Source: Desulfobacca sp. (GTDB lineage Bacteria; Desulfobacterota; Desulfobaccia; Desulfobaccales; Desulfobaccaceae). Taken from it: DNA of 33,221 nucleotides. Below the pieces are notes generated by a model. The model had not been told where the DNA came from and searched no databases. It worked only from the letters and a program-made list of their open reading frames with translations. The first letter of the stretch is position 1; each line of letters starts with the position of its first letter. This document shows positions 20,446 to 33,221 of the stretch, piece by piece. The stretch spans positions 1 to 33,221 of the forward strand of contig JAQVHY010000019.1 in the NCBI GenBank assembly GCA_028695935.1. The letters run 5' to 3'. The position numbers and the translations under genes are program-made.

Positions 20446-21309
20446 TTATAGATTTGATCCTATGACTTGGGCCAGGCCTGCAGGTATGTGCCTGATAATC
20501 TCTGCTACCTGGGTGGCTGGGGTAGGGTGGGCGTAATGCCCGGCAAAACGATTGACCCGGGCGGCCATGATCGCCGCCTGGTCAATGGCCATGCCGGTGC
20601 TGGCCAGGGCGGCGACGATTCCGGTCAGGGTATCCCCGGTCCCCCCCAGGGCTTCCAGGGCGGGTTCAAGCGGATGGGCAACGGTAGCCACGATACCCGC
20701 GCGGGTGGCCAGATAATCTTGTTGGCCCTTGACCAATAGATAGCGGGCGGCGTTGTCGTGGGCATAGGCGCGGGCAATCAGTTCTGGAACCCGATCTTCC
20801 TGATGCAAAATAAAACCTCGGGTATAGAAGGGATGCGGAGCCTGTTCATCCGCTAAAAAGGCCAACTCCCCGACATCAGGGGTAAAAAGATCGTAGCAAC
20901 TGGCCTGCCCGCTCATTTTGGCGGCATACATGAACCCGGCGTCGGCGATCAGGATAGGACGCGGGGACATCTCTTCCACCGCGAACAGCACGCGGTTATG
21001 CCAATCGACATCGGGCTGTAGGTAATGAAAGACCAGGGTGTGGATGTGGGCTTTTTTGAGGTTGGCCGCTAGGTATTGGTAAAGTCGGCGGCTGCCCTCA
21101 CCCAGGCCGAGATCTCCTACCAGATAGGCATAAGGGGCTGGTTGACCCAGGACTTCACAGACTATGAGGGCCGCGGCCAGCAACGCCGGGGTGCCGCGGT
21201 TGACTGAGACCTGATATCCCAGTATGTCGATCAGATCCTGGTTCAGGGTGACTTGGCCAGTCACCAGGGGGAAATCCGGCACAGGCACGGTGCCTACTAC
21301 CGCGAGCAT
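20446..21309 (-). CDS. NAD(P)H-hydrate dehydratase/ribokinase-like protein in selenium-type cluster
   Basis: 287 residues from ATG 21309, which overlaps the upstream DUF3343 stop by 13 bases; the longer frame to 21441 would overlap that gene fully and is rejected. Motifs of the ribokinase-like YjeF-C/NNRD fold are clear: LIADAGFMYAA, the acidic DLFTPDVGELAFL (like NPxE), YLLVKGQQDYLA, and the phosphate/catalytic loop EALGGTGDTLTGI with the conserved Asp. NNRD repairs damaged NAD(P)H, but the divergence and tight linkage to YedE/TusA/DUF3343 genes suggest a different small-molecule or phosphorylation role here. The function is uncertain; the fold is confident. Confidence 0.78.
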   Translation of the reverse strand: MLAVVGTVPVPDFPLVTGQVTLNQDLIDILGYQVSVNRGTPALLAAALIVCEVLGQPAPYAYLVGDLGLGEGSRRLYQYLAANLKKAHIHTLVFHYLQPDVDWHNRVLFAVEEMSPRPILIADAGFMYAAKMSGQASCYDLFTPDVGELAFLADEQAPHPFYTRGFILHQEDRVPELIARAYAHDNAARYLLVKGQQDYLATRAGIVATVAHPLEPALEALGGTGDTLTGIVAALASTGMAIDQAAIMAARVNRFAGHYAHPTPATQVAEIIRHIPAGLAQVIGSNL

Positions 21310-21848
21310 TGCCGGACTATCTCCTCGAAGGCCAGTTGCAGGGCATAGCCGCATAGGGTATGGCCGATTTCTTTCGGGCGGGGGGCCGTGGCCAGGGTCT
21401 TCCCGACCATTTTCTGCGCCAGGTAGGGGACATCGGGACAACCGCCACCCGAGATGTTAACAATAAGCTGAGATTCTTTGTCCACGGTCAATTTCATATT
21501 AGCGGCTCGAATCATCAGGTAGCGGCCAAAGTCCTTGATCTGGAAAAGGTCTACGGGTTTCATCAGAGGGCTGCTCACCGGGACTATTTGCAGCGGGCTG
21601 AGCTGAGCTGCCTCTAGGGTCCGGACCAAGTTAAGCTCTTCGATCAGCGGAAATTCAATAACCAGATCGCAGCCGCTCTGGATCTCCGGCGGCGGCCCCA
21701 TCACCCGGATCTGCCAGCCGGCCGCCTTCAGGAGCTTTTCGGCCCGGATAACTTCGCTGGTATGGGAAAAAACCAATATACCCAAATCAGCCTGGCTCTC
21801 ATCCGGTCGGGATCGCAGTTGGCGTTTAAAAATACCACGCCACCTCAT
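21297..21848 (-). CDS. DUF3343 (putative Se/S carrier-like) protein with C-terminal extra domain
   Basis: 183 residues from ATG 21848, 2 bases after the tusA-like stop. Residues about 22-70 are DUF3343: ILVFSHTSEVIRAEKLLKAA, then the conserved Cys in EIQSGCDLVIEF (C60). DUF3343 proteins are proposed selenium/sulfur carriers. The second half (about 95-183) is not a domain I recognise. It contains ISGGGCPDVPYLA (C137), C166 and C181, a Gly-rich Cys motif that could be a second chalcogen acceptor site. It overlaps the kinase-like gene, so they are probably translated together. Confidence 0.8.
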   Translation of the reverse strand: MRWRGIFKRQLRSRPDESQADLGILVFSHTSEVIRAEKLLKAAGWQIRVMGPPPEIQSGCDLVIEFPLIEELNLVRTLEAAQLSPLQIVPVSSPLMKPVDLFQIKDFGRYLMIRAANMKLTVDKESQLIVNISGGGCPDVPYLAQKMVGKTLATAPRPKEIGHTLCGYALQLAFEEIVRQCSR

Positions 21849-21850
21849 GG

Positions 21851-22069
21851 CTAGTCCTTGGTGAGGGTAAGTTGATATTCTAGGCCTTCTTGTTGCATCT
21901 CGGTCAACTGCCAACCCTGGCTGGCTGCGGCCCGAATGACGTTCTCCTTGGAAGTATCGGTATCCACCAGGACCATAATTTGCCCCTTATTCAGCTTCTT
22001 AATCGCTTGTAAGGTCAGCAGCACCGGCTGGGGGCAGGACAGCCCCCGGGCGTCGATCGTGGTGCCCAT
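21851..22069 (-). CDS. tusA: TusA/SirA-family sulfur (selenium) carrier protein
   Basis: 72 residues, normal for stand-alone TusA. The N-terminal IDARGLSCPQPVLLTLQAI holds the catalytic Cys (C12) in the CPxP motif, which carries a persulfide or perselenide. The start ATG 22069 has GAGGTGAT just upstream; a longer frame to 22291 runs antisense-like through yedE and is rejected. It lies 11 bases after yedE and 2 before DUF3343. In selenium metabolism a TusA domain is often part of YedF; here it stands alone. The symbol is by family; the cargo (S or Se) is not proven. Confidence 0.92.
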   Translation of the reverse strand: MGTTIDARGLSCPQPVLLTLQAIKKLNKGQIMVLVDTDTSKENVIRAAASQGWQLTEMQQEGLEYQLTLTKD

Positions 22070-22080
22070 AATATCACCTC

Positions 22081-23175
22081 TCAATTTAACTTGATGCGCA
22101 TGGTGTAGCCAATCGCCAGACAGACGATAAGCCCGATAATGACCGCGATAATCCCATATTGCCCGACTCCCTGGGGGGAACTGGCCAGCTTGAAGTTGTG
22201 GGCCACGCCCGCGCCGACGATCATCCCCAGCACGAACACCCCGGCGTCGCCATCGCCTTCGCCGGCCAGGAAGAGCTGCCGTCCCGGACATCCCCCGGCC
22301 AGGGCAAAAGCCAGACCAGCTACCACCATTCCCCCGAAGTTCCAGATTTCCATGGTATGGGCCACCGGCTGGTTAGTAAAACCCGGGTGGAACTGGCCAA
22401 CGATCAGGTTGGTGACCCAGGCCGCGGCCAAGAGCGCCAGGACGCCGGAGAATAAATGCGCCTGGCGGAAGAGAATCAGATCCCGAAAGGCCCCCATGGT
22501 GCAAAACCGGCTACGCTGGCAGATGATGCCAATCAACAGGCCCACCGCCAGGGAGACCATGACCGGCGCGTACATGGCTCCCGGCCCCTGGAGACTGTAA
22601 AATAGTATGCCGCTTTCGCCCTGCTCCGGAATCGGCGGAAAGATCAGGCGGAGCAGGAGTAGTCCGACCATGAGCAGCGGCAGGGTCCAACCTACCGACG
22701 TATAAGTAGCCTGAGAGCGCCCCAGGTTGTAGCCCTGCCTGAAGAACCAGGTGCCAATCCACACCCCGGTCACCAGACCGAGTAAGCCGAAAAGGGCATT
22801 GCCGTCCCCGCCGGCCAGACGCAGCAAGGCCCGCCAGGGGCAGCCCAGAAAGACCAGGGCGCCGATCATGGCGATGGCTCCCAGCACGAACCGGACGATC
22901 GGCGCGGAACCAGCCCGGGGGCGGAATTCCTTGAACAGATAGGCGCTAACAAAGGCCCCGAGTACGAAGCCGATGATTTCCGGGCGGACATACTGGACTA
23001 CCGCGGCCCGGTGCAGCCCCAGACCGCCGGCGATATCCCGTTCAAAGCAGGCCACACAGATGCCCATGTTGCCCGGATTGCCCCATTTCTGTAACAGGGC
23101 GGCCAACACCCCAATCACCAGGCCCACCCCAATGATGCCCCACCGGGTGGCAAAGAGATTTTTCCATAAAGTCAT
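22081..23175 (-). CDS. yedE: YedE/YeeE-family membrane transporter, selenium-metabolism type
   Basis: 364 residues, about ten membrane helices. It carries the YedE/FdhT-type N-terminal signature: GNPGNMGICVACFERDIAGG (C40, C43) and LHRAAVVQYVRPEIIG. Further conserved Cys and Gly motifs are FLGCPWRALLRLAGGDGNA, CQRSRFCTMGAFRD and AGGCPGRQLFLAGEGDGDA. This subfamily is linked by genome context to selenium use and is thought to import a selenium or sulfur species, probably thiosulfate-like in the wider YeeE family. It is first in a compact operon with tusA, DUF3343 and the kinase-like gene. A GGAG site precedes the ATG. Confidence 0.88.
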   Translation of the reverse strand: MTLWKNLFATRWGIIGVGLVIGVLAALLQKWGNPGNMGICVACFERDIAGGLGLHRAAVVQYVRPEIIGFVLGAFVSAYLFKEFRPRAGSAPIVRFVLGAIAMIGALVFLGCPWRALLRLAGGDGNALFGLLGLVTGVWIGTWFFRQGYNLGRSQATYTSVGWTLPLLMVGLLLLRLIFPPIPEQGESGILFYSLQGPGAMYAPVMVSLAVGLLIGIICQRSRFCTMGAFRDLILFRQAHLFSGVLALLAAAWVTNLIVGQFHPGFTNQPVAHTMEIWNFGGMVVAGLAFALAGGCPGRQLFLAGEGDGDAGVFVLGMIVGAGVAHNFKLASSPQGVGQYGIIAVIIGLIVCLAIGYTMRIKLN

Positions 23176-23333
23176 CTAGGTTCTCCTTCTAATTATAACA
23201 AAATCACGCGACGGGCAGCAGAAATGGCGATTGGCACCTATTATCAACTTTCCATTCCAATGCAAACCACTTAACACATAACCTACTGATTAAATTTATC
23301 CTTTCAACAGAAAACCGAAAACTGAAAACAGTA

Positions 23334-24731
23334 TTAAAACCCTACCTGCCCCTGGACGGTCACCAGGTTCTGATCGCCGCCGCTGTAGTTGCCGCTGGGG
23401 GCGTGATCTTCCTGTTGGGTGATCTGCGTCCAATCGACGCTCAGCTTGGCGTTTTGGCCTTTGAGATAATAATTGAGACCGAAGCTGGGGAAATAGGTGT
23501 CCGGGCGATTTTTGACAAACAGACGCTCATAGCGGAAATAGGGTTGCAGTTTTCCCGGCCCCAACTGCCAGGGTAAGAGATAGCCCCCTTGAATATAAAA
23601 GAGCTGGGCGTCTTCTCCGGCTACCAGCCAGCTATAACCCAGGGTTTGGGTCATATTTTTGACATTGATATAGGCGGCTTCGGCGGTAAGCGCGCCGCTG
23701 CCGATGGGATGGTCGAAAAACAGGTCCACTGTCCAGCCCAGATTGTTCTCGTCCGGTCGGTTATTTAGGGTCAGGTTATTCTGGTAATCAAAACCGGCGC
23801 CCAGAGACAGGACCTTTTTCTTCCCCAGATAGGTGCCTTGATTAAACCAGGAGGTTTCGGGCTCCAACAGACTTAAGGAGAGCCGACCGGCCAGTCTCAG
23901 GTTATCATCGGGGTTAGCCGCGCCCTCAACCCCGTCAAAGACTCCCAGGCGATACTGGATTAGCCCGCCCCAGGGATTGCCCCACAACAGCACCCCGTCA
24001 TCGCGCCCCACTTTGCTGTAATAAAATATGCCGCCCCGCACCCCGCCCTGATTGAAGGCCAGTTCCAGCGGCAACAGGCCGAAGGTAGAGGTGGTGCCAT
24101 AGTTGCGGGTGAAGGGGATATACATCCGGCCTAACTGGATGGTCAAAGGCTCACCCAACTTATAATAAACCCAGGCATCGCGCACCGCGATACTGGTCCC
24201 CAGACCTACGGAAGGCTGATCCAGCCCATCCTGACCGAGACGGTCCCCGGCAATATGGGCAAAGAAACCAAAGCCCGGGAAGGCCTCACCCTGTAGGTAA
24301 AAATAGAAGCGGCGCAGCATAAAATCGTCCAGGTCTTTCCGGCCCTTCCCCGCAGCTTTGCCATCTTCCATAAACTGATACCAGGCCTGCATGCGCAACC
24401 CGGCTTTAAGCTTGTGTTTTTCGATAAAATTCTCCACTTTGCCGGTCAGGGTGGCCACCTCTTGTTTGACCTCCTTGACCTCGTCGGGCGGAGCTTCCCG
24501 TACCTCGGCGGGCGGAGCTTGCGGTTTCTGAGTTTCCTGTTCTAAGGCGGCAATTCTCTTTTTTAGTTCGTTTATTTCCTCGTCTTTTTTCCGTTCCAGG
24601 TCGGTCAGCATCTTTTTTAAGAGTTCAATTTCGGCTTCTACCGGGGCGGCCAGCGCCGGGATCACCCTGATCGAGAGCGTCATCCCGGCCAGAACTAAGG
24701 CTAGCAGGCAGATGTTGATATGCTTGGTCAT
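23334..24731 (-). CDS. OprP/OprO-type outer-membrane porin
   Basis: 465 residues. A signal peptide (ICLLALVLAGMTLSIRVIPA) is followed by a coiled-coil segment (about 34-70, LTDLERKKDEEINELKKRI) and a Pro-rich linker, then a beta-barrel of about 350 residues with alternating amphipathic strands (MLRRFYFYLQGEAFPGFGFF) and a C-terminal Phe (GQVGF), the outer-membrane insertion signal. It resembles the phosphate-selective porin O/P family; the ion selected cannot be told. It lies between the nickel operon and the yedE cluster on the same strand, so a role in uptake of a metal or oxyanion is possible. Confidence 0.88.
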   Translation of the reverse strand: MTKHINICLLALVLAGMTLSIRVIPALAAPVEAEIELLKKMLTDLERKKDEEINELKKRIAALEQETQKPQAPPAEVREAPPDEVKEVKQEVATLTGKVENFIEKHKLKAGLRMQAWYQFMEDGKAAGKGRKDLDDFMLRRFYFYLQGEAFPGFGFFAHIAGDRLGQDGLDQPSVGLGTSIAVRDAWVYYKLGEPLTIQLGRMYIPFTRNYGTTSTFGLLPLELAFNQGGVRGGIFYYSKVGRDDGVLLWGNPWGGLIQYRLGVFDGVEGAANPDDNLRLAGRLSLSLLEPETSWFNQGTYLGKKKVLSLGAGFDYQNNLTLNNRPDENNLGWTVDLFFDHPIGSGALTAEAAYINVKNMTQTLGYSWLVAGEDAQLFYIQGGYLLPWQLGPGKLQPYFRYERLFVKNRPDTYFPSFGLNYYLKGQNAKLSVDWTQITQQEDHAPSGNYSGGDQNLVTVQGQVGF

Positions 24732-25146: not shown

Positions 25147-25926
25147 TCATTTTCCTGGCCAACCAGTAAACTGCACCCAAAGCACCGCACCGTATTCGGC
25201 GTCCTTTTTCTTGCCGTCCGGTTGGGCTATGGCGTTTTTTTCCTCGTTTAAGGCGGAGAATCCCCACCAGCCAGCCTGGGGGGCCGCAAAGCTAAAGACC
25301 CCGTTCTTATCAGTTTTTACTACCTGGGTGATAAAATAATCGTTGGGAGCGGTCAACTTTTGGTCAGCGTTCCAGTATTCCACTTCCACATCGACGTTAG
25401 GCACCGGCTTGCCCTTGAATTTCACCGTCCCCTGAAAGACGTTGCCGGTATAGAGGCCAAAGGGCCGGGTTAAGGGGATAATTTCCGCTTTCAGGCCCAG
25501 TTCCCGATCCCAACCGGCTTCGTCCCCAAAGGCGGCTACGTAAGTTTTGGTCTGGTGGACGATATACTTATCCTCCGCGGGTTCCCAGTAGGGTTGGGGA
25601 TCAAAGTAAAAGATATAAACCCCAGGTTTTTTCAGGGTATAACTGGTCTTCCAGGCCTGCTTAGCCAGGATCTTGGTTTCCTCAAGGGTATTCAGAAGAT
25701 TGGTTTTCTCTTTCCCGGATTGGACCCCAAAAGCCTGGGGTTTAGCCAGGTCCATGCCGTTCTGCTCAAAGGGATGGCAGAAGGCCAGGAGCAGCTCCAG
25801 GTTGGGGTTGTCGCCCGGCAACACCATAGTTTTGTCGGGCAGGAGGACCCCGAAATGGGCCTGGCTGACCTGGGCCAGTGAGATGACTAACATCAGTCCC
25901 AGACAGAGTATAAGGGAACGCTTCAT
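25147..25926 (-). CDS. nikK: DUF4198 periplasmic protein of nickel transporter (NikK-like)
   Basis: 259 residues from ATG 25926, which has GGAGAAAGATC directly upstream; a longer frame to 26103 adds unrelated residues and overlaps nikO. A signal peptide ends in AQVSQA, giving a mature protein that begins HFGVLLPD, so the first residue is probably histidine. The DUF4198 body ends with beta-sandwich segments such as [23 protein letters not shown]4198 proteins of this type accompany ECF nickel/cobalt transporters (NikK of Rodionov and co-workers) and are thought to bind the metal. It follows nikO by 82 bases. Confidence 0.82.
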
Positions 25927-26008: not shown

Positions 26009-26737
26009 TCAATATTCACCCCCAGGGGCCGAGACCGTTTTTTTGCAGGTCGAAACCGGTTCCTCGCCTGCTCGGTGGGGCAGGGGTTGACAGCAGTGTC
26101 CATGTACTCGGCAGCACTCCTTGACCGTGTGGTTTAAAAAATCATGTTCATGGGAAACGATCATATAAGAGATCTCCAGGTTTTTCAGGATGTGGATGAG
26201 ACGATGTTTGGTGTGCTCGTCCAACCCGGTGGTAGGCTCATCCAACAACAGCAACTGCGGTTGCATGGCCAACACCGTGGCCAGGGAAACCAGCTTCTTT
26301 TCGCCCCCGGAGAGTTTATAGGTCACCCGGTCTTCAAAGCCTGTAAGCCCCAAGCGATCCATGGTCTCCCGAGCGATTTGTACCGCCAACGCGGGCGACT
26401 TTCCCTGGTTCAGGGGACCGAAGGCCACGTCTTCTAAAACCGTGGGGCAGAAAAGCTGGTCATCGGCGTTTTGAAAGAGCAGACCTACCTTTTGCCGGAC
26501 CCGGACAAAATCCTTCTCCTTGTTGACCTCTTCTCCGAAGATGACGATTCTACCGGCCTGGGGGCGCAACAGTCCCATGATCAGGTGTAACAAAGTAGTC
26601 TTGCCGCAGCCGTTGGGACCGATGAGGCCGATATGATGGCCCGGCAGGAGCTGAAAGTTAAAATCTTGAAATACCGGCCGGGAAGCGCCCGGGTAGGCGA
26701 AGGTAATATTGTGCAAGGCAATCAAGGCTTCACTCAT
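26009..26737 (-). CDS. nikO: ECF nickel/cobalt transporter ATPase (NikO/CbiO type)
   Basis: 242 residues. Walker A is GPNGCGKTT (near 40-48), the Q-loop [13 protein letters not shown] is typical of CbiO/NikO, the signature is LSGGEKK (142-148), Walker B LLLLDEPT (162-169) and the switch His in IVSHEHDF (H196). It energises the NikM/NikQ transport module at the membrane. The tail beyond residue 200 is unusual: it holds C208, C209, H212, H214, C215, C216, H221 and C231 and may bind metal. It lies 7 bases after nikQ. Nickel and not cobalt is inferred from the NikL and NikK neighbours. Confidence 0.9.
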
Positions 26738-26744
26738 GCGATAT

Positions 26745-27515
26745 TCACCCTAGACTAGGTTTTAGCCATTCGAGACAGAAGAGGACCGCGCCGGCGAGCA
26801 GGGCAGCCGCCAAAAAAGTACCGTCCCGGCGTTGCCAGTAAAAGGTCCGCAGGCTGTAGAACCTCCCGTGAAACCCGCGGCACAACATGGCCTGGAAAAC
26901 GCGGTCGGCCCGATCATAGCTGCGTACCAGCAACATCGCCGCCAGATAGGCGTAAGAGCGATAGGTGTGCAGATTGGTACGAGGCTGAAATCCCCGAATT
27001 TTCATGGCCTGCACCAGACGGCGATATTCCTCCTCAAAAACATACAGATAGCGGTAAGTAAACAGCAACAGATGGCACAACTTGTCCGGCAGCCGCAGAT
27101 TCTGCAGGGCCTGTCCCAGGGTAATGACCGGCACCGTGGCCACTAAGGCAATGAGGATGATGATAATGGCATTGGATTTAAGGGTGATCAGGCCGGTAAA
27201 GAGCAGCCCCTGCCGGGTGGCGGACAGCGGCCCCAGCTCCCACACCACGTCTCCGGGATAAGTCAGGGGCAGGACCAGCCAGAGAAAAAAAATAAAGCTA
27301 TTCACTACCAGCAGCCGGGCAACCACTTTTCTTAAGGGAAGACCGGCCAGGGCCAGAAAAACCAGGGACAGCGCCAGTCCGGCCAGGATGGTGGTGTAGG
27401 TCTGGGCGGTGGCGATCAAGACGGCAAACAGACCGGCTACCCCGATCTTGCCCCGGGGGTCCAAACGGTGCATCAGCGATGCGCCTTCGGAAAATGGCTC
27501 TTGAATGGCACTCAA
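26745..27515 (-). CDS. nikQ: ECF nickel/cobalt transporter T-component (NikQ/CbiQ type)
   Basis: 256 residues with four to six membrane helices. The N-terminus reads ASLMHRLDPRGKIGVAGL, the usual CbiQ/NikQ opening, and the C-terminal coupling helices carry AMKIRGFQPR and AMLCRGFHGRF, the two A-R-G motifs that contact the ATPase. The start is TTG 27515, which overlaps the nikL stop (TTGA); ATG 27473 is the only other option and would remove the conserved N-terminal residues. It links the substrate-binding NikM to NikO. Confidence 0.88.
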   Translation of the reverse strand: MSAIQEPFSEGASLMHRLDPRGKIGVAGLFAVLIATAQTYTTILAGLALSLVFLALAGLPLRKVVARLLVVNSFIFFLWLVLPLTYPGDVVWELGPLSATRQGLLFTGLITLKSNAIIIILIALVATVPVITLGQALQNLRLPDKLCHLLLFTYRYLYVFEEEYRRLVQAMKIRGFQPRTNLHTYRSYAYLAAMLLVRSYDRADRVFQAMLCRGFHGRFYSLRTFYWQRRDGTFLAAALLAGAVLFCLEWLKPSLG

Positions 27516-28156
27516 GGATTTCTCTTCCGCCGGCTTTGGAAATAAGCCCAGAGGCCGAAAATGCCGAGGATATAACCGATACCGCCGATGATGTCCGGCA
27601 ACGAAGTCCGGCGGACGGTCAGTTCGGTAAGCATCTCCTTGATCGGCACTAACTGGCGCTCCAGGGCTTTATTTACGGCCTCTTCTAATTGTTGCCGGTC
27701 AACCGTGACGGCTGGGGTCTCCGCAGCTACCGGCGTCGAGGTCGATGCGGGGGGCTGAGCCGTGGCCTTTTGGACTCCCTGGAGATAGCTGTCGGCCCGG
27801 AGCAGCCATTCTCCCCGATGTCCCATGCCGGCCTCCAGGACGATTTCCAGGTCTAGCTTCTGGGCCACGGCCTCGGCCGGGATTTTAAAGGAGAACTTTC
27901 CCTGGTCATCGGTCTGGCCGGTCAACAAGACCTTGCCGGTTTTGCGATCCAGGACCTGTACTTCACCCTGGCGTACCGGCGTGTCCGGCACAAACTTGCT
28001 CTCCGTATGGATGGTATCGCCCTCGGCGTAGGCGAAAATTATTGCCCGGTGAGCCAGGCCGGGGCTGGTTAAGGCACAGATAAAGATAATAAAAACAGAT
28101 AATTGAACTATAGACTGTAATAGATGGGATTGCCCTCGCCACCATTTACTAGGCAT
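27512..28156 (-). CDS. nikL: Accessory membrane-anchored protein of nickel transporter (NikL-like)
   Basis: 214 residues from ATG 28156, which overlaps the nikM stop by 8 bases and has GGAGG upstream; the longer frame to 28228 lies inside nikM and is rejected. Signal segment QLSVFIIFICALTSPGLA is followed by a mature start HRAIIFAYAEGDT, again a histidine. A carboxypeptidase-regulatory-like beta domain follows (RQGEVQVLDRKTGKVL), then a Pro/Thr linker and a C-terminal membrane helix (DIIGGIGYILGIFGLWAYF) ending in RRKR. This layout matches NikL, which replaces NikN in some nickel transporters. Confidence 0.82.
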   Translation of the reverse strand: MPSKWWRGQSHLLQSIVQLSVFIIFICALTSPGLAHRAIIFAYAEGDTIHTESKFVPDTPVRQGEVQVLDRKTGKVLLTGQTDDQGKFSFKIPAEAVAQKLDLEIVLEAGMGHRGEWLLRADSYLQGVQKATAQPPASTSTPVAAETPAVTVDRQQLEEAVNKALERQLVPIKEMLTELTVRRTSLPDIIGGIGYILGIFGLWAYFQSRRKRNP

Positions 28157-28754
28157 AGATTCCCTCCAACATCTCCGGACGGACTTTTTGCAGAAATAGA
28201 TAGATAAACAGCGTAATGATACCCTCAATGATCATTATCGGGATATGCGCCAGCAGGACCAACTGGGCTACTTCGAGAAAGGCCTGGCCGGTGGTGATTA
28301 AGGCTAAGGCGACCAGCAGACCGCTCAGCAAAACCGCGGTGAACCCACAGGCAAAAGCACCAATGGCGGCGGGGGTGCCGGGATGGCGCAATAGGCCGCG
28401 ATAGGTATAAAAGCAGAGGACCGCCGGGGCCGCCATGGTCACGGTATTCACTCCTAGCACGGTCAGCCCCCCGAACTGGAAGAGCAGGGCCTGCAAAAAC
28501 AGGGCGATAAGAATGGCAGGGACGGCCATCCAACCCAGCAGCAGCCCCATGAGGCCATTGAGCACCAGATGCAGGCCTACCGGGCCGACCGGGACATGAA
28601 TGAGTGAAGCCACAAAGAAGGCCGCGGACAGGATGGCCACCCGGGGGATGGCCTCATAATCAATTTTTCTCAGGCCAATCGCGGTGCCCACTACCGTCAA
28701 GACGGCGCCCCCCGCCAATACCGCGGGACTGAGCACTCCTTCTGAAATGTGCAT
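28149..28754 (-). CDS. nikM: ECF nickel/cobalt transporter substrate-binding subunit (NikM/CbiM type)
   Basis: 201 residues from ATG 28754. The start gives MHISEGVLSP, the defining CbiM/NikM N-terminus in which the amino group and His2 bind the metal; the longer frame to 28793 would bury it and is rejected. A further conserved His lies in GPVGLHLVLNGLMG (H62), the position of the third ligand in known NikM structures. About six membrane helices follow. It captures Ni2+ or Co2+ for import. It is the first gene of nikM-nikL-nikQ-nikO-nikK, and its leader contains an intrinsic terminator (28822-28878). Confidence 0.92.
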   Translation of the reverse strand: MHISEGVLSPAVLAGGAVLTVVGTAIGLRKIDYEAIPRVAILSAAFFVASLIHVPVGPVGLHLVLNGLMGLLLGWMAVPAILIALFLQALLFQFGGLTVLGVNTVTMAAPAVLCFYTYRGLLRHPGTPAAIGAFACGFTAVLLSGLLVALALITTGQAFLEVAQLVLLAHIPIMIIEGIITLFIYLFLQKVRPEMLEGIYA

Positions 28755-28821
28755 GTTTTCCCTATTCTTTAGATTGTAATTCCGAGAAATCAAACATCAA
28801 CAGGTAAGTCCACCAGACCAC

Positions 28822-28878
28822 AAAAAAAGCCACGAAGGTTACCTTCCTCAAGGAAGGGTGATAAGCCTTCATGGCTTT
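28822..28878 (-). terminator. Intrinsic terminator in the nikM leader (possible attenuator)
   Basis: On the minus strand AAAGCCATGAAGG pairs with CCTTCGTGGCTTT (12 of 13), enclosing a perfect CCTTCC-TTGA-GGAAGG hairpin, and runs into a stretch of seven U. It lies about 67 bases upstream of the nikM ATG. No gene lies upstream on that strand, so it is better explained as leader attenuation or the end of a short RNA. Confidence 0.7.
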
Positions 28879-28926
28879 AATGTTCCTTTAAATTATTGCT
28901 AAATGTCCTACCGTTTATTCAACCTC

Positions 28927-28955
28927 AGTGTATAGCAAATAGCCGACAAATGCAA
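28927..28955 (-). promoter_or_regulatory. Possible sigma-70 promoter of nikM operon
   Basis: TTGCAT (28955-28950) and TACACT (28932-28927) on the minus strand are 17 bases apart. Transcription would start near 28920, about 42 bases before the leader terminator. Confidence 0.3.
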
Positions 28956-29047: not shown

Positions 29048-29077
29048 TTGACAAAGGTTAGAAACCCGGATTATTAA
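29048..29077 (+). promoter_or_regulatory. Possible sigma-70 promoter of tetrapyrrole-methylase-like operon
   Basis: A perfect TTGACA (29048-29053) is followed 18 bases later by TATTAA (29072-29077). The predicted transcript starts near 29084 and would include the hairpin at 29090-29105 and the terminator at 29142-29187. Confidence 0.4.
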
Positions 29078-29089
29078 TAGGGCACAAAG

Positions 29090-29105
29090 CGGGGAATGAA
29101 CCCCG
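29090..29105 (+). other. GC-rich hairpin at start of leader
   Basis: CGGGG-AATGAA-CCCCG, five G-C pairs and a six-base loop, close to the predicted 5' end of the plus-strand transcript. Could stabilise the leader or form part of an aptamer. Confidence 0.4.
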
Positions 29106-29141
29106 GTTAAACATTCAAAACTAAAGCGGTAAAAAACTCAG

Positions 29142-29187
29142 CCACGAAGGCCACAACCACCAGAAGGTGGAGGTTCGTGGTTTTTTT
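29142..29187 (+). terminator. Intrinsic terminator upstream of tetrapyrrole-methylase-like operon
   Basis: CCACGAA (29142-29148) pairs with TTCGTGG (29174-29180), enclosing CCACC-AGAA-GGTGG, and is followed by seven T (29181-29187). It lies 142 bases before the start of the first gene and has no plus-strand gene upstream, so it suggests attenuation. An A-run at 29131-29136 also makes it weakly bidirectional. It shares GCCACGAAGG with the nikM leader terminator. Confidence 0.65.
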
Positions 29188-29328
29188 ATGCTCATTTTTA
29201 GGAAAGAACCACCATGATTTGCTCAGGCTAACCGGCTGGACGACTGGCCGTCCAAGGATTTTCCTTACCTTGGCCCTATTGGTGTTCTTAAATCGAGATA
29301 CTCTGGGTTCTTCAGAAAGGATAGAGAA

Positions 29329-30261
29329 ATGGCAGGAAAAAAGCTGGCGAAGCTGATCTTGATGACGTTTTGGTTATTAATGTTGGGGATGGTTTCCAGC
29401 CTGGCCGCGACCGCAGGTTCGGGAACCTTATATGTGGTAAGCACCGGTCCGGGCGATCCCCAACATATCACCCTCAAGGCCCTGGAAACCATCAAAAATG
29501 CCGACCTGGTATTATGCAGCCCCGAGTCGGCCAAACTATTGCCGGAAGTCTTGCAGGGCAAAAAGGTGGAAGATCCCTGGAAGGAATTGTGGTGGCATCA
29601 GGGCAAGGTGTGGATGAAAGATCTTGCCACCTTTAAGCCCGAGGAACGGGCCCGGATCGTGGCGGGAAAAAAGCGCCAACGCGATGAATATGTCCAACGC
29701 CTGAAAACCCTACTGGCCCAAGGGCAAAATATCGCCCTGTTGGACCGCGGCGACCCGACCGTCTATAGCCGGTCCTTCTGGCTGCTGGAAGGGCTGGACC
29801 AGGATCAGGTAGAAATTATTCCAGGGGTCGGCGCCATGACCGCGGCCATGGCGGCTTTGAAAAAAAGCAGCACCGGCGGCGGGGCCCGATTTGTGGCTCA
29901 GACCGCGCCATATGCCTTTTTCGGGAAAACCGACCGCGAGGACCTGGCCCGCGACCTCTCCCGTTATCCCGGCACCCTGGTGTTCTACATGGGTATGGCA
30001 GAAATTGAGAATCTGGTAAACACCCTGAAGAAATACAACACCGCCGACCTGCCGGTGGCCGTGGTTTATTACGCCGGCTATGCTGACAAAGAAAAGATGG
30101 TCAAAGGCAACCTGGGCAATATTCTGGGTAAGCTCGCTTCCGAAAAAGAGGAATTCATGGGGATAATTATCGTTGGGCAATGTCTGGAGGGCCCAACTTT
30201 CACTTTGTCGGAGGAAGCCCCAGAGAAACCGACTCTTCCGAAAGGCACGAGCCAAAAGTAA
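29329..30261 (+). CDS. Exported tetrapyrrole methylase-fold protein, copy 1
   Basis: 310 residues. A lysine-rich start and hydrophobic core (LILMTFWLLMLGMVSSLA) form a signal peptide or membrane anchor, directly followed by a complete tetrapyrrole (corrin/porphyrin) methylase fold of the CbiF/CobA superfamily. SAM-site motifs are intact: STGPGDPQHITLKAL (GPGDP at 40-44), LLDRGDPTVYS (GDP at 141-143), IIPGVGAMTAAMAAL, LVFYMGM and, at the end, GIIIVGQCLEG. Normal members are cytoplasmic, so an exported version is odd, because SAM is not expected in the periplasm. No in-frame ATG lies between the signal and the fold, and AAGGA precedes the used ATG. It may bind a tetrapyrrole or metal complex and not methylate it. 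Confidence 0.85.
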   Translation: MAGKKLAKLILMTFWLLMLGMVSSLAATAGSGTLYVVSTGPGDPQHITLKALETIKNADLVLCSPESAKLLPEVLQGKKVEDPWKELWWHQGKVWMKDLATFKPEERARIVAGKKRQRDEYVQRLKTLLAQGQNIALLDRGDPTVYSRSFWLLEGLDQDQVEIIPGVGAMTAAMAALKKSSTGGGARFVAQTAPYAFFGKTDREDLARDLSRYPGTLVFYMGMAEIENLVNTLKKYNTADLPVAVVYYAGYADKEKMVKGNLGNILGKLASEKEEFMGIIIVGQCLEGPTFTLSEEAPEKPTLPKGTSQK

Positions 30262-30337
30262 TCCATCTTAGTCAAGAGTAGTAATTTAGCGGATATTTTG
30301 GCTGAGATGCTAATGATGGCACCAATGAGGATAAATT

Positions 30338-31300
30338 ATGTCATTATGGAAACGGATAAACCTTACAATTTGGCTTGCAGGTTTGATGCTGGCGGTGGGG
30401 GTGATTGGGGTTCAGGCCGGTTCCCTCACCCCTGGCACTTTTTATGTGGTGGGCGTCGGCCCGGCCGGACCGGAACATGCTACCTTGCGAGCCCTGGAAG
30501 TCATCAAAGGCGCAGATTTTATCCTGTGCGGCGAGAAGATGGCAGCACGCTTTAAGCCCTACTTGCAAGACAAAACTATTCTGGGTGATCCTTGGAAGGG
30601 TATGTGGGATTATAAAGGCAAGACTTGGGAAGAAATCCCCAAACTAAAGCCCGAAGAACAACGAGTCTTCCAAGAGGAGCGGATCAGCATCCGTGAGGCG
30701 CTGGTTCGGCAGATAAAAGAGAAGCTGGGGGAGGGCAAGACTGTAGCCTTATTGGACAGCGGCGACCCTTGCCTCTTTGGCCCGGCGCATTGGTTTAGCG
30801 AAGGTTTGGAGCCGCAACAGGTGGAAATCATTCCGGGAGTGGGGGCCTTCAGCGCGGCGATGGCGGCCCTGCAAAAATCCAGCATGCCGGCCTATGATGC
30901 CCGCTTTGTCATGCAGACCTCACCTTTCTTTCTCAAAGGAAAACAGGAAAAAGGCGATAAGGTGATCCAAGACTTGGCTAAATATCCCACCACCATGGTG
31001 TTTTACATGGGTATTAAGGACCTCCCCCATCTCATTCCCCTGTTAAAGAAATCCCATCCCGGCGATCTGCCCGTGGCTATAGTCTATAATGCCGGTTATC
31101 CCGATAAAGAGAAGGTAGTTAAAGGGACGCTCGACACGATCTTGGGCCAAATAAGCGGGGAAAAGGAAAAATGGAACGGCCTGATCATTGTGGGCCGCTG
31201 TCTGGAAGGTCAACCTTACCGCGGTCGGGTGGAAAGACTGGCGGGCTATCAGGATATTAAAAAGGTTAAAAAGTCTGCTAAGACAGCACCAAGTCGGTAG
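30338..31300 (+). CDS. Exported tetrapyrrole methylase-fold protein, copy 2
   Basis: 320 residues, a tandem paralogue of the gene 76 bases upstream; both share the unusual DPWK-x-x-W block (residues 84-90 here) and KPEE. A signal peptide (LTIWLAGLMLAVGVIGVQA) comes before the fold. The first SAM loop is altered: GPAGPEH (41-47) replaces GPGDPxx, losing the conserved Asp, while SGDPCLFG (GDP 142-144), IIPGVGAFSAAMAAL and MVFYMGI remain. A basic tail ends the protein (KKVKKSAKTAPSR). The loss suggests weakened or changed cofactor binding. GAGG lies 7 bases before the ATG. Function unknown; fold confident. Confidence 0.83.
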   Translation: MSLWKRINLTIWLAGLMLAVGVIGVQAGSLTPGTFYVVGVGPAGPEHATLRALEVIKGADFILCGEKMAARFKPYLQDKTILGDPWKGMWDYKGKTWEEIPKLKPEEQRVFQEERISIREALVRQIKEKLGEGKTVALLDSGDPCLFGPAHWFSEGLEPQQVEIIPGVGAFSAAMAALQKSSMPAYDARFVMQTSPFFLKGKQEKGDKVIQDLAKYPTTMVFYMGIKDLPHLIPLLKKSHPGDLPVAIVYNAGYPDKEKVVKGTLDTILGQISGEKEKWNGLIIVGRCLEGQPYRGRVERLAGYQDIKKVKKSAKTAPSR

Positions 31301-31350
31301 TTTCGAGCGGATGATGCCCTATTTTTTACCAAACAATAAGGAGATTTAAG

Positions 31351-32112
31351 ATGAAAAAAATCTGTATAATTCTTACCCTGGCCCTGATCTTGATCTTTCC
31401 GGTCAGCTCCCTGGCCCATATGATCTGGCTGTTGGCCGACCAAGACGTTGCCCAAGTGAAGCAGCCGGTTAAGATCGAAATCGGCTGGGGACACAAATTC
31501 CCCAAAGATGAACAGATCAAGGCGGAGCGATTAGGCGCGGTCAAGGCCGTGGGCCCGGATGGCCAGGAGGTCGCCCTGAAAAAAATCTCCGTCAGCCAGT
31601 ATGAATTGGTGCCACCCACCGCCGGGGTCTATCTGATTTCCGCGCAGTTGGTTCCGGGGTTTGCGACCCGCACCCCGCAGGGGATGAAGATGCAAAGCAA
31701 AAAAGGGGTCCCCGACGCTAACTACTGTTTTCGGTTTGACATGGCTGCCAAGACTCTGGTCAATGTCGGCAACTCGAAGCAAGGGACTGACCGCCCAGCT
31801 CAGAGCAATCTGGAGATTGTGCCGCTCAAAGACCCGGTTGCTTTAAAGGTCGGGGACACGCTGCCGGTTAGAGTTATGTTTCAAGGAAAGCCCCTGGCCG
31901 GGGTCAAACTTGAATTCACCCATGAGAATTGGGCCGATCCGCAAAAACCCTCGGCTACCCTGGGCCAGACCAACGACCAGGGTGAAATTCAGGTGAAAGT
32001 TGACCAACCGGGGCAATGGCTGCTGTTGGCCTCACATAAGACTCCTTATGCACAGCCTGAGGAATGTGATGATAATTTTTACCGCGCCACCCTTACCTGG
32101 CGGGTCCGCTGA
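31351..32112 (+). CDS. DUF4198 periplasmic protein (second, NikK-like relative)
   Basis: 253 residues. The signal peptide (IILTLALILIFPVSSLA) would leave a mature N-terminus HMIWLLADQ, fitting the H-x-x-W opening typical of DUF4198. The last third has a beta-sandwich with GKPLAGVKLEFTHENW and QTNDQGEIQVKV, the same type of C-terminal domain as the NikK-like protein in the opposite operon. Exposed N-terminal His plus inner His residues suggest metal binding, most likely nickel or cobalt by family context. AAGGAG precedes the ATG. It lies 50 bases after the second exported methylase-like gene and 3 before the permease gene. Confidence 0.85.
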   Translation: MKKICIILTLALILIFPVSSLAHMIWLLADQDVAQVKQPVKIEIGWGHKFPKDEQIKAERLGAVKAVGPDGQEVALKKISVSQYELVPPTAGVYLISAQLVPGFATRTPQGMKMQSKKGVPDANYCFRFDMAAKTLVNVGNSKQGTDRPAQSNLEIVPLKDPVALKVGDTLPVRVMFQGKPLAGVKLEFTHENWADPQKPSATLGQTNDQGEIQVKVDQPGQWLLLASHKTPYAQPEECDDNFYRATLTWRVR

Positions 32113-32115
32113 CCC

Positions 32116-33221
32116 ATGAACCACGTCGCCTCCGCTGGTGCCCGCCAGGACTCAGTGCCGAAATGTCAATATCGCCACCAACTCGGCCTCTTCTCTGCCG
32201 TGATCCTGGTGGTGGCCAATATGGTGGGCACCGGCATCTTTACCACCTCGGGCTTCATTATTCAGGAATTACACAACCCCTGGGCCATGTTGGCCTGCTG
32301 GGCGGTGGGGGGGCTATTTGCCCTGACCGGGGCTCTGTGCTATGGCGAACTGGGAGCCCGGTATCCTCGGGCCGGGGGGGAATATGTCTTTCTGCGGGAA
32401 AGTTTCGGCGAATCAGTGGCCTTTTTGTCCGGCTGGGTGTCCCTCCTGGTAGGTTTTTCGGCCCCGGTGGCCGCGGCGGCCATGGCCTTTGCGGTCTATT
32501 TTCTGGGGAGTCTGGGTCTGCACCCCAACCTGGGTTTTACCTTAAACATTCAGGGGATGACGGTGCTGACCATCTCCCCCGTGACCCTGTTGGCGGCCGG
32601 CATTATCCTGGGCTTTTCCTTGGTCCACCGCCACAGCCTATTCTTGGGTAGCCGCATCCAAAATCTGCTTACCTTGTTTAAGGTCGCCATCATCTGCACC
32701 TTAATCTTTTGGGGCCTGGGCTGGGGTAACGGGTCGGTGTCCCACTTTGGCACCTTCCCGTCGGCCAAGGTCTTGTTTTCCAGCCCGTTTGCCACTTCAC
32801 TGGTATTTATCACTTTCGCGTATAGCGGCTGGAATGCCGCGGCCTACATGGGAAGCGAAATCTCCCGTCCTACCCAGAACATCCCTCTGGCCCTGGCTCT
32901 CGGTACGCTTTTAGTGACCGTCTTTTACCTGCTGCTCAATATGACGTTTATTTATGGACTTTCCACCCCGGAGATGAGCGGCGTTTTGGAGGTCGGGGAA
33001 AAGGCCGCCCTGGCCCTTTTTGGTCCCGGAGTGAGCCGCATCTTTGCCGGGGCCATTGCTTTGAGTCTGCTCTCGCTGATCAGCGCCATGATGATGACCG
33101 GGCCCCGGGTCTATCAGGCCATGGCCGGTGATGGTCTATTTTTTACCGCCTTCAGCAAATTACGGCACGGCTCCGGGCCGCCCGGCAATGCCATCCTGCT
33201 TCAGGCCGGGTTGGCACTGTT
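32116..33221 (+). CDS. APC-superfamily amino-acid permease, N-terminal part (3' end outside window)
   Basis: The frame stays open from ATG 32116 to the window end, giving 368 residues of a protein usually 430-480 long. The first helix has the APC signature VANMVGTGIFTTSGF, followed by GALCYGELGARYPRAGGEY, typical of the amino acid/polyamine/organocation family, and SLVFITFAYSGWNAAAYMGS for helix 6. About nine membrane helices are visible. Its start is 3 bases after the DUF4198 stop with a weak ribosome-binding site, so translation may be coupled. A cationic or neutral amino acid is the likely substrate, but a chelator such as histidine would suit the metal context. Confidence 0.9.
   Translation, partial: MNHVASAGARQDSVPKCQYRHQLGLFSAVILVVANMVGTGIFTTSGFIIQELHNPWAMLACWAVGGLFALTGALCYGELGARYPRAGGEYVFLRESFGESVAFLSGWVSLLVGFSAPVAAAAMAFAVYFLGSLGLHPNLGFTLNIQGMTVLTISPVTLLAAGIILGFSLVHRHSLFLGSRIQNLLTLFKVAIICTLIFWGLGWGNGSVSHFGTFPSAKVLFSSPFATSLVFITFAYSGWNAAAYMGSEISRPTQNIPLALALGTLLVTVFYLLLNMTFIYGLSTPEMSGVLEVGEKAALALFGPGVSRIFAGAIALSLLSLISAMMMTGPRVYQAMAGDGLFFTAFSKLRHGSGPPGNAILLQAGLAL

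Follow-up and report, generated by a model that had tools for sequence, protein, structure and literature searches.

We analyzed a stretch of 33,221 nucleotides from a Desulfobacca genome of 3.17 Mb (contig JAQVHY010000019.1), hereafter the window, which carries two tandem plus-strand genes encoding proteins with a tetrapyrrole methylase (TPM) fold behind a predicted signal peptide. These genes, A (29329-30261, window coordinates) and B (30338-31300), probably encode a periplasmic part of a TonB-dependent nickel acquisition system, in which the TPM fold is reused to hold or process an imported nickel complex; we assign this reading a probability of roughly two in three. What is new is the link between TonB-dependent receptors and TPM-fold proteins. 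Gene calls are longest open reading frames, and metagenome-assembled genomes were used.

TPM genes are linked to TonB-dependent receptors

A TonB-dependent receptor gene lies at most four genes away from 54 of the 71 TPM genes of this family (47 of 62 non-redundant loci), compared to about 5% expected for a random gene, as estimated from 20 receptor candidates among approximately 3,000 genes in Desulfobacca acetoxidans. In the converse comparison, the selenocysteine receptor gene of the PCPU type was followed immediately, within about 310 bp and in the same orientation, by a TPM gene in all 11 genomes of the phylum that encode it, which rejects a chance gene neighbourhood. The receptor matches NF049947 ('TonB-dependent receptor, PCPU motif-type') with 1140 bits at a cut-off of 800, and its family is therefore already known. 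In a subgroup, a TGA codon interrupts the receptor frame at RLPCP-U-DYYWWARCAS, and behind it lies a stem of the bacterial SECIS type whose apical loop is GGU; the score above cut-off, the in-frame UGA and the SECIS hairpin were found together in the sister genome and in related genomes. Receptors beside TPM genes belong to NF049947 (PCPU), NF049944 (PUIUD), NF049946 (CU), NF049945 (FCYXU) or relatives of these families. Selenocysteine receptors were always found beside exported TPM genes (PCPU type in L040, L122, L129, L043, L046, L047, L049 and L050; also in L048, where the receptor is PUIUD-like with two in-frame TGA codons).

In the sister genome G005 the order is TPM-A, receptor, TPM-B, DUF4198 and APC permease. 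The window keeps this order minus the receptor, and the 76-bp gap between A and B retains pieces that resemble both junctions. No PCPU-type receptor was found elsewhere in the window genome. Since each of the seven genomes in the organism's family, this one included, encodes SelB, receptor loss through lost selenocysteine machinery was rejected; the missing receptor may be a true loss or an assembly gap. The receptor as constant partner had been overlooked in an earlier note on the window, which also lacked the selenocysteine form, the APC permease, the NikL-like proteins, FmdE, the fusion of DUF4198 with TPM and the leader RNA common to both operons, all described below.

Selenocysteine TonB receptors of the same families, or relatives, are reported in PMC12013277 and listed in PMC13188914. 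In their available text both sources treat them as receptors only, with no mention of a constant TPM partner, a link to nickel or a leader RNA. Our literature search found nothing relevant on exported TPM proteins with TonB receptors. The selenocysteine receptors of NCBIfam would thereby gain a testable substrate class.

Organization of the locus

On the plus strand, A and B are followed by genes for a DUF4198 protein and an APC permease, and an operon for NikM, NikL, CbiQ, CbiO and a second DUF4198 protein runs divergently. The features are as follows.

29048 to 29077, plus strand: sigma70-like promoter TTGACA-N18-TATTAA, conserved in G005, its -35 part also in G006
29082 to 29190, plus strand: leader RNA of the TPM operon, with a UGAA-loop hairpin, a linker and a conserved AGCCACGAAGGC...UUCGUGG-U7 terminator (E=1.8e-14)
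29329 to 30261, plus strand: gene A, predicted exported TPM-fold protein of the GPGDP type, signal peptide at about residues 1-27
30262 to 30337, plus strand: 76-bp A-B gap; G005 has the selenocysteine TonB receptor here, lost in the window or lost in assembly
30338 to 31300, plus strand: gene B, predicted exported TPM-fold protein of the GPAGP/GDPC type, from a clade that elsewhere follows the selenocysteine PCPU TonB receptor
31351 to 32112, plus strand: DUF4198 protein (PF10670), NikK-like
32116 to 33219, plus strand: APC amino-acid-permease-like gene, truncated where the window ends; recurs as the final gene of the module
28821 to 28932, minus strand: terminator-type leader before the divergent nik operon, hairpin 1 not evident (E=1.1e-5, model R2)
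28149 to 28754, minus strand: NikM/CbiM, S component of a nickel/cobalt ECF transporter, starting MHISEG
27512 to 28156, minus strand: NikL family extracytoplasmic/membrane subunit (NF058648, 183 bits, cut-off 100)
26745 to 27515, minus strand: CbiQ/NikQ, T component (TIGR02454, above cut-off)
26009 to 26737, minus strand: CbiO/NikO ATPase
25147 to 25926, minus strand: NikK-like DUF4198 protein with signal peptide (frame opens at 26103, likely start 25926)

Predicted export is a trait of the TPM family

The earlier note had described two complete TPM folds behind signal peptides, with good ribosome-binding sites and no internal start that would remove the export signal. This was borne out. Shine-Dalgarno-like sequences precede both genes (AAGGA before A, GAGGA before B). 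In A, later ATG and TTG codons fall within the hydrophobic segment, and the first possible start beyond them is a GTG that already belongs to the first core strand. The idea that the N-terminus is unique or misread was rejected, as the hydrophobic segment is family-wide: 61 of 71 homologues passed our signal-peptide rule, compared to 0 of 36 canonical TPMs. Of the 10 homologues that failed, truncation, misreading or a His instead of Lys/Arg explains at least four, and six members are truly without a signal peptide (L051, L052, L178 and L181-L183). A third TPM copy is present in the window genome (contig C103) and five are present in D. acetoxidans; each of these copies has its own start codon and a separate signal peptide that does not resemble the others. 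Conservation of the signal peptide in the three and five copies of these genomes and throughout the phylum places it beyond chance. The family model matched in 39 of 395 Desulfobacterota genomes (E<=1e-40), and a scan of species genomes added one member from Planctomycetota and two from Bacillota. In a tree made with a quick method, the exported family forms one side of a branch against the canonical TPMs (SH-aLRT 81), and the members lacking a signal peptide nest inside the clade of gene B; they therefore look like secondary losses.

The predicted export signals vary. Some members are lipoproteins that carry two TPM domains, a Tat-like signal also occurs, and in one signal-peptide protein (L185) DUF4198 and TPM are fused (PF10670 E=1.5e-39, PF00590 E=4.5e-42). 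This natural fusion argues that TPM resides in the same compartment as DUF4198. Alternatively, the N-terminal segment could be an artefact of annotation or act as a signal anchor, with the domain staying in the cytoplasm. Cleavage is predicted only, which would suit an anchor, but the lipobox variants, the fusion behind a DUF4198 domain with N-terminal His, and the persistence of the segment in distant members and its absence from the 36 canonical TPMs make this explanation highly improbable. Moreover, the domain is predicted to lie outside because positive residues occur only before the hydrophobic stretch. A whole family of a tetrapyrrole-synthesis enzyme fold appears to have been relocated outside the cytoplasm.

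As a separate observation, an exported Oxidored_molyb-like domain is fused to a TPM domain in six loci (L203:7184-8941, minus strand; L187, L194, L200, L206 and L209). These fusions carry a CxxCH haem-type motif in L203 and others, and ResB/CcsA-like genes, named by eye, lie near those of L194 and L200.

Fold, motifs and possible ligands

The products of A (310 aa, beginning MAGKKLAKLILMTFWLLMLGMVSSLAATAG) and B (320 aa, beginning MSLWKRINLTIWLAGLMLAVGVIGVQAGS) match Pfam TP_methylase PF00590 over the whole domain, far above the gathering score (E=3.4e-39 and E=4.8e-43, respectively). The AlphaFold2 model of A (pLDDT 90.6, pTM 0.82) has a helix at residues 2-25 followed by the TPM fold, and its top Foldseek matches in the PDB are CobM (3ndc, E 2.5e-18, TM 0.82 by target length), CysG, NirE and CbiF. 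The whole-domain match and the class III methyltransferase fold place the proteins in the PF00590 fold family. With CbiF/CobM, CobA/SUMT, CysG and NirE they share the whole fold, domain order, GDP loop and YM motif; unlike these enzymes, the A/B family carries export signals, forms its own branch, has an insert, drifted SAM loops and an AG signature, and is encoded in metal-uptake operons. No NCBIfam equivalog reached its cut-off for A or B, and neither qualifies as a cytoplasmic cobalamin or siroheme enzyme.

The earlier note had called both genes GPGDP-type, which holds only for A, since B reads GPAGP. Gene A keeps the GPGD, GDP and YM motifs and has PGVG and AG in the other SAM loops; B is without GPGD as well. 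This drift is family-wide. Full GPGD occurs in 25 of 79 family domains versus 17 of 19 canonical ones and PGx[ST] in 35 of 79 versus 18 of 19, whereas the AG signature is nearly fixed (77 of 79 versus 1 of 19); the GDP loop is kept in 62 of 79. About 26 extra residues lie between strand 2 and the GDP loop, and in the window's clade this insert bears a DPWK..W motif. The catalytic Asp/Lys positions of SUMT are not kept. Given the export signals and the drift of the SAM loops, a cytoplasmic SAM-enzyme reading does not fit, and the TPM fold here probably serves something other than SAM methylation. Because GDP is mostly kept and A retains GPGD, a SAM-like or tetrapyrrole ligand may still be bound.

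SAM-dependent methylation by the exported proteins is unlikely. That they are working methyltransferases acting on a metallophore or tetrapyrrole outside the cytoplasm might be argued from the GPGDP, GDP and YM motifs of A, from another methyltransferase gene beside members lacking a signal peptide (L183) and from a TrmO-like gene near an exported TPM (L174). We consider this very improbable, since to our knowledge SAM is not known in the periplasm, the SUMT Asp/Lys pair is missing and the SAM-loop residues drift freely.

A second possibility concerns the ligand, which could be a metal-tetrapyrrole (for example F430 or what remains after its breakdown, a corrinoid, Ni-porphyrin or haem); the receptor would bring it in, and the TPM-fold protein would bind it or remove its metal in the periplasm. 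The known ligands of the TPM fold are tetrapyrroles and SAM, relatives of the receptor include haem- and B12-type families (with sub-cutoff scores only), and the domain fused to TPM in L203 has a CxxCH haem motif. Against this, the genes seen to recur next to the family encode nickel-binding and transport proteins, with no tetrapyrrole gene among them, the insert remodels the trough, and the fold suggests a tetrapyrrole yet alone does not prove one. We therefore regard such a ligand as possible and rather doubtful. The periplasmic metal-tetrapyrrole system proposed in the earlier note thus stands for predicted export, the metal-trafficking setting, nickel and a probable non-methylation use of the fold, but not for the metal-tetrapyrrole itself. 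The periplasmic cobaltochelatase CbiK-P of Desulfovibrio is a precedent for an exported tetrapyrrole-family protein; it has a chelatase fold, in contrast to the methylase fold of A and B, and a Pfam profile search found no CbiK match in either.

Nickel-related partners

Nickel is required by hydrogenases and CO dehydrogenase in these anaerobes. The passage of nickel across their outer membrane is poorly known, and a cable-bacteria survey found no relative of known nickel receptors there (PMC11247825); a receptor, a constant periplasmic partner and a candidate regulator can now be named. Nickel as the metal is well supported indirectly, by sequence context. As the earlier note had stated, A and B sit with a DUF4198 protein (31351-32112, PF10670 E=3.4e-43). 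Across genomes, a DUF4198 gene lies within four genes of TPM in 28 of the 62 loci; for an APC permease the count is 27, and for a NikL-like protein it is 15. A DUF4198 member is a secreted Ni2+ binder (Kd 18 nM) that uses His1 and His18, and TonB receptors and NikR were found as DUF4198 neighbours (PMC12537917); an exported TPM partner is not mentioned in the available text of that source. The window protein belongs to the same Pfam family, and its predicted cleavage SSLA|HMIW, read by eye, would leave an N-terminal His.

The divergent genes make up a NikMLQOK-type set by profile matches and hence a full ECF transporter, again as previously proposed. NikK and NikL have been proposed as periplasmic nickel-transporter parts in the NikMNQO/NikKMLQO group (PMC545781). 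The window operon (28754-25147) is of this type, with DUF4198 as NikK and with NikL present; it differs in being coupled to an outer-membrane receptor-TPM module, in the leader RNA in front and in the absence of a NikR gene from the organism's family. The module might serve cobalt or corrinoid uptake rather than nickel uptake, as NikM/CbiM, CbiQ and CbiO are common to both kinds of ECF transporter and the best NCBIfam name for the window's CbiM-type gene is 'cobalt transporter CbiM'. This is unlikely in view of the nickel-type partners NikL and NikK(DUF4198) (PMC545781 and the available text of PMC12537917), a leader that seems to replace the nickel repressor NikR, CooC-like ATPase genes after the leader in L265 and L283, and the lack of a cobalamin riboswitch in an Rfam search.

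FmdE proteins, which bind Zn/Ni and mostly adjoin metal transporters (PMC2954224), are exported beside exported TPM in L188, L208, L049 and L172. In L183, an FmdE without signal stands beside a TPM without signal peptide, a FecCD ABC importer and a class I methyltransferase gene. TPM members without signal peptide occur with ABC importers in L178, L181, L183 and L052, which fits a protein that follows its substrate to the delivery site. In L183, L181 and L178 the adjoining importers are of the FecCD type, a cytoplasmic version of the module. Separately, signal-peptide proteins joining a nucleoside-hydrolase-like domain to FmdE lie beside TPM genes (L049:10766-12262, L172:5250-6740).

A leader RNA shared by the divergent operons

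The region ahead of gene A has the same layout in three genomes: a promoter-like -35, a hairpin whose loop is AAUGAA or AUUGAA, a linker and a terminator with AGCCACGAAGGC. A strict promoter scan did not list the TTGACA-N18-TATTAA promoter, whose spacer is 18. An RNA model of three sequences (R1) located the leader before most receptor-TPM operons of the window's order; some antisense matches on the palindromic terminator were left out of the argument. A model of 19 sequences (R2) found the leader in 53 of 297 Desulfobacterota genomes, and it also matched the leader of the window's nik operon, which was outside the model. This shared leader argues that gene A and the divergent nik operon form one regulon. 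The leader before both operons, with its UGAA-loop hairpin, linker and AGCCAYGAAGGC terminator, may outweigh the original finding in worth.

Among the 84 leader matches that were kept, CCA-N-GAAGG is nearly invariant, which is partly selection because matches were filtered on this motif. In the first hairpin the stem varies and the GAA loop is retained (45 strong cases versus 1.55 in shuffles), and its closing pair is GC, CG, AT or TA. The 105 proteins encoded downstream of about 60 further matches include ExbB (12), TonB plug (12), DUF4198 (9), CbiM (7), ExbD (7), periplasmic binding proteins (4), FecCD (3), SBP family 5 (3), TonB (3) and FmdE (2). As predicted from such genes, the leader regulon is one of Ni/Co uptake. 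A further leader in the window's genome lies in front of an ExbB-ExbD pair, on a contig that also carries a TonB receptor (G000 contig C165:4247-4373, minus strand; L263). No Rfam 15 covariance model, NiCo, cobalamin and others included, matched the leader (E<=0.5 or 1), and a cobalamin or NiCo riboswitch was rejected. The NiCo riboswitch RF02683 is likewise a metal-linked leader RNA, whereas the leader described here lies ahead of uptake genes and has a conserved terminator at its end.

A NikR gene is absent from all seven genomes of the organism's family, and no GTGTTAC-N13-GTAACAC site was found in the window, where N14 spacing was not searched; NikR control of the window operons was therefore rejected. 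Leader and NikR occur together in 2 of 297 genomes versus 24.4 expected (p=1e-13, or p=1e-10 without the window's order, values that ignore shared descent). Within some families (f11, f46), different members carry either the leader or NikR. We infer the ligand of the RNA and its sense (off with nickel) from the regulon and the NikR exclusion only; if the leader senses nickel, it would be a nickel-uptake regulator in NikR's stead.

A model for nickel acquisition

In the reading that we prefer, a nickel complex would enter through the dedicated TonB-dependent receptor, which often has selenocysteine or cysteine where it faces the ligand. Once the complex is in the periplasm, the exported TPM-fold protein would hold it or take it apart in the old SAM/tetrapyrrole trough and pass the metal to the Ni2+-binding, NikK-like DUF4198 protein, after which NikMLQO and/or the APC permease would carry the metal or the freed ligand across the inner membrane. 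In lineages with an ABC importer, the TPM protein would have lost its signal peptide and would act in the cytoplasm. The terminator-ending leader RNA would control both window operons, most simply by halting transcription at sufficient nickel, and would thus replace NikR. Both the binding of a ligand by the TPM fold and the order of hand-over are inferred here.

Several points weigh against this reading. Signal peptides were called by one home-made rule, not SignalP, and the leader statistics disregard common ancestry. Some TPM loci are without a DUF4198 or NikL neighbour, and APC permeases are amino-acid transporters that give no direct pointer to a metal or tetrapyrrole. Exported TPM proteins may still bind SAM or SAH, the leader regulon may answer to cobalt or corrinoid as well as nickel, and the identities of metal and ligand are deduced from gene neighbourhoods and related sequence features.

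A broader and more speculative proposal, which we hold only tentatively and consider doubtful, is that NikR-less Desulfobacterota scavenge organic nickel complexes, possibly tetrapyrroles such as F430 remains, with selenocysteine receptors and dismantle them in the periplasm with exported methylase-fold proteins, a new nickel-sensing leader class shutting the regulon.

Downstream of the nik operon, positions 21297-24731 (minus strand) hold what looks like a selenium-related cluster: a YedE-like membrane protein and a DUF3343-like gene, both named by eye, and an ExtI-like porin with a profile score of 138 bits at a cut-off of 150.

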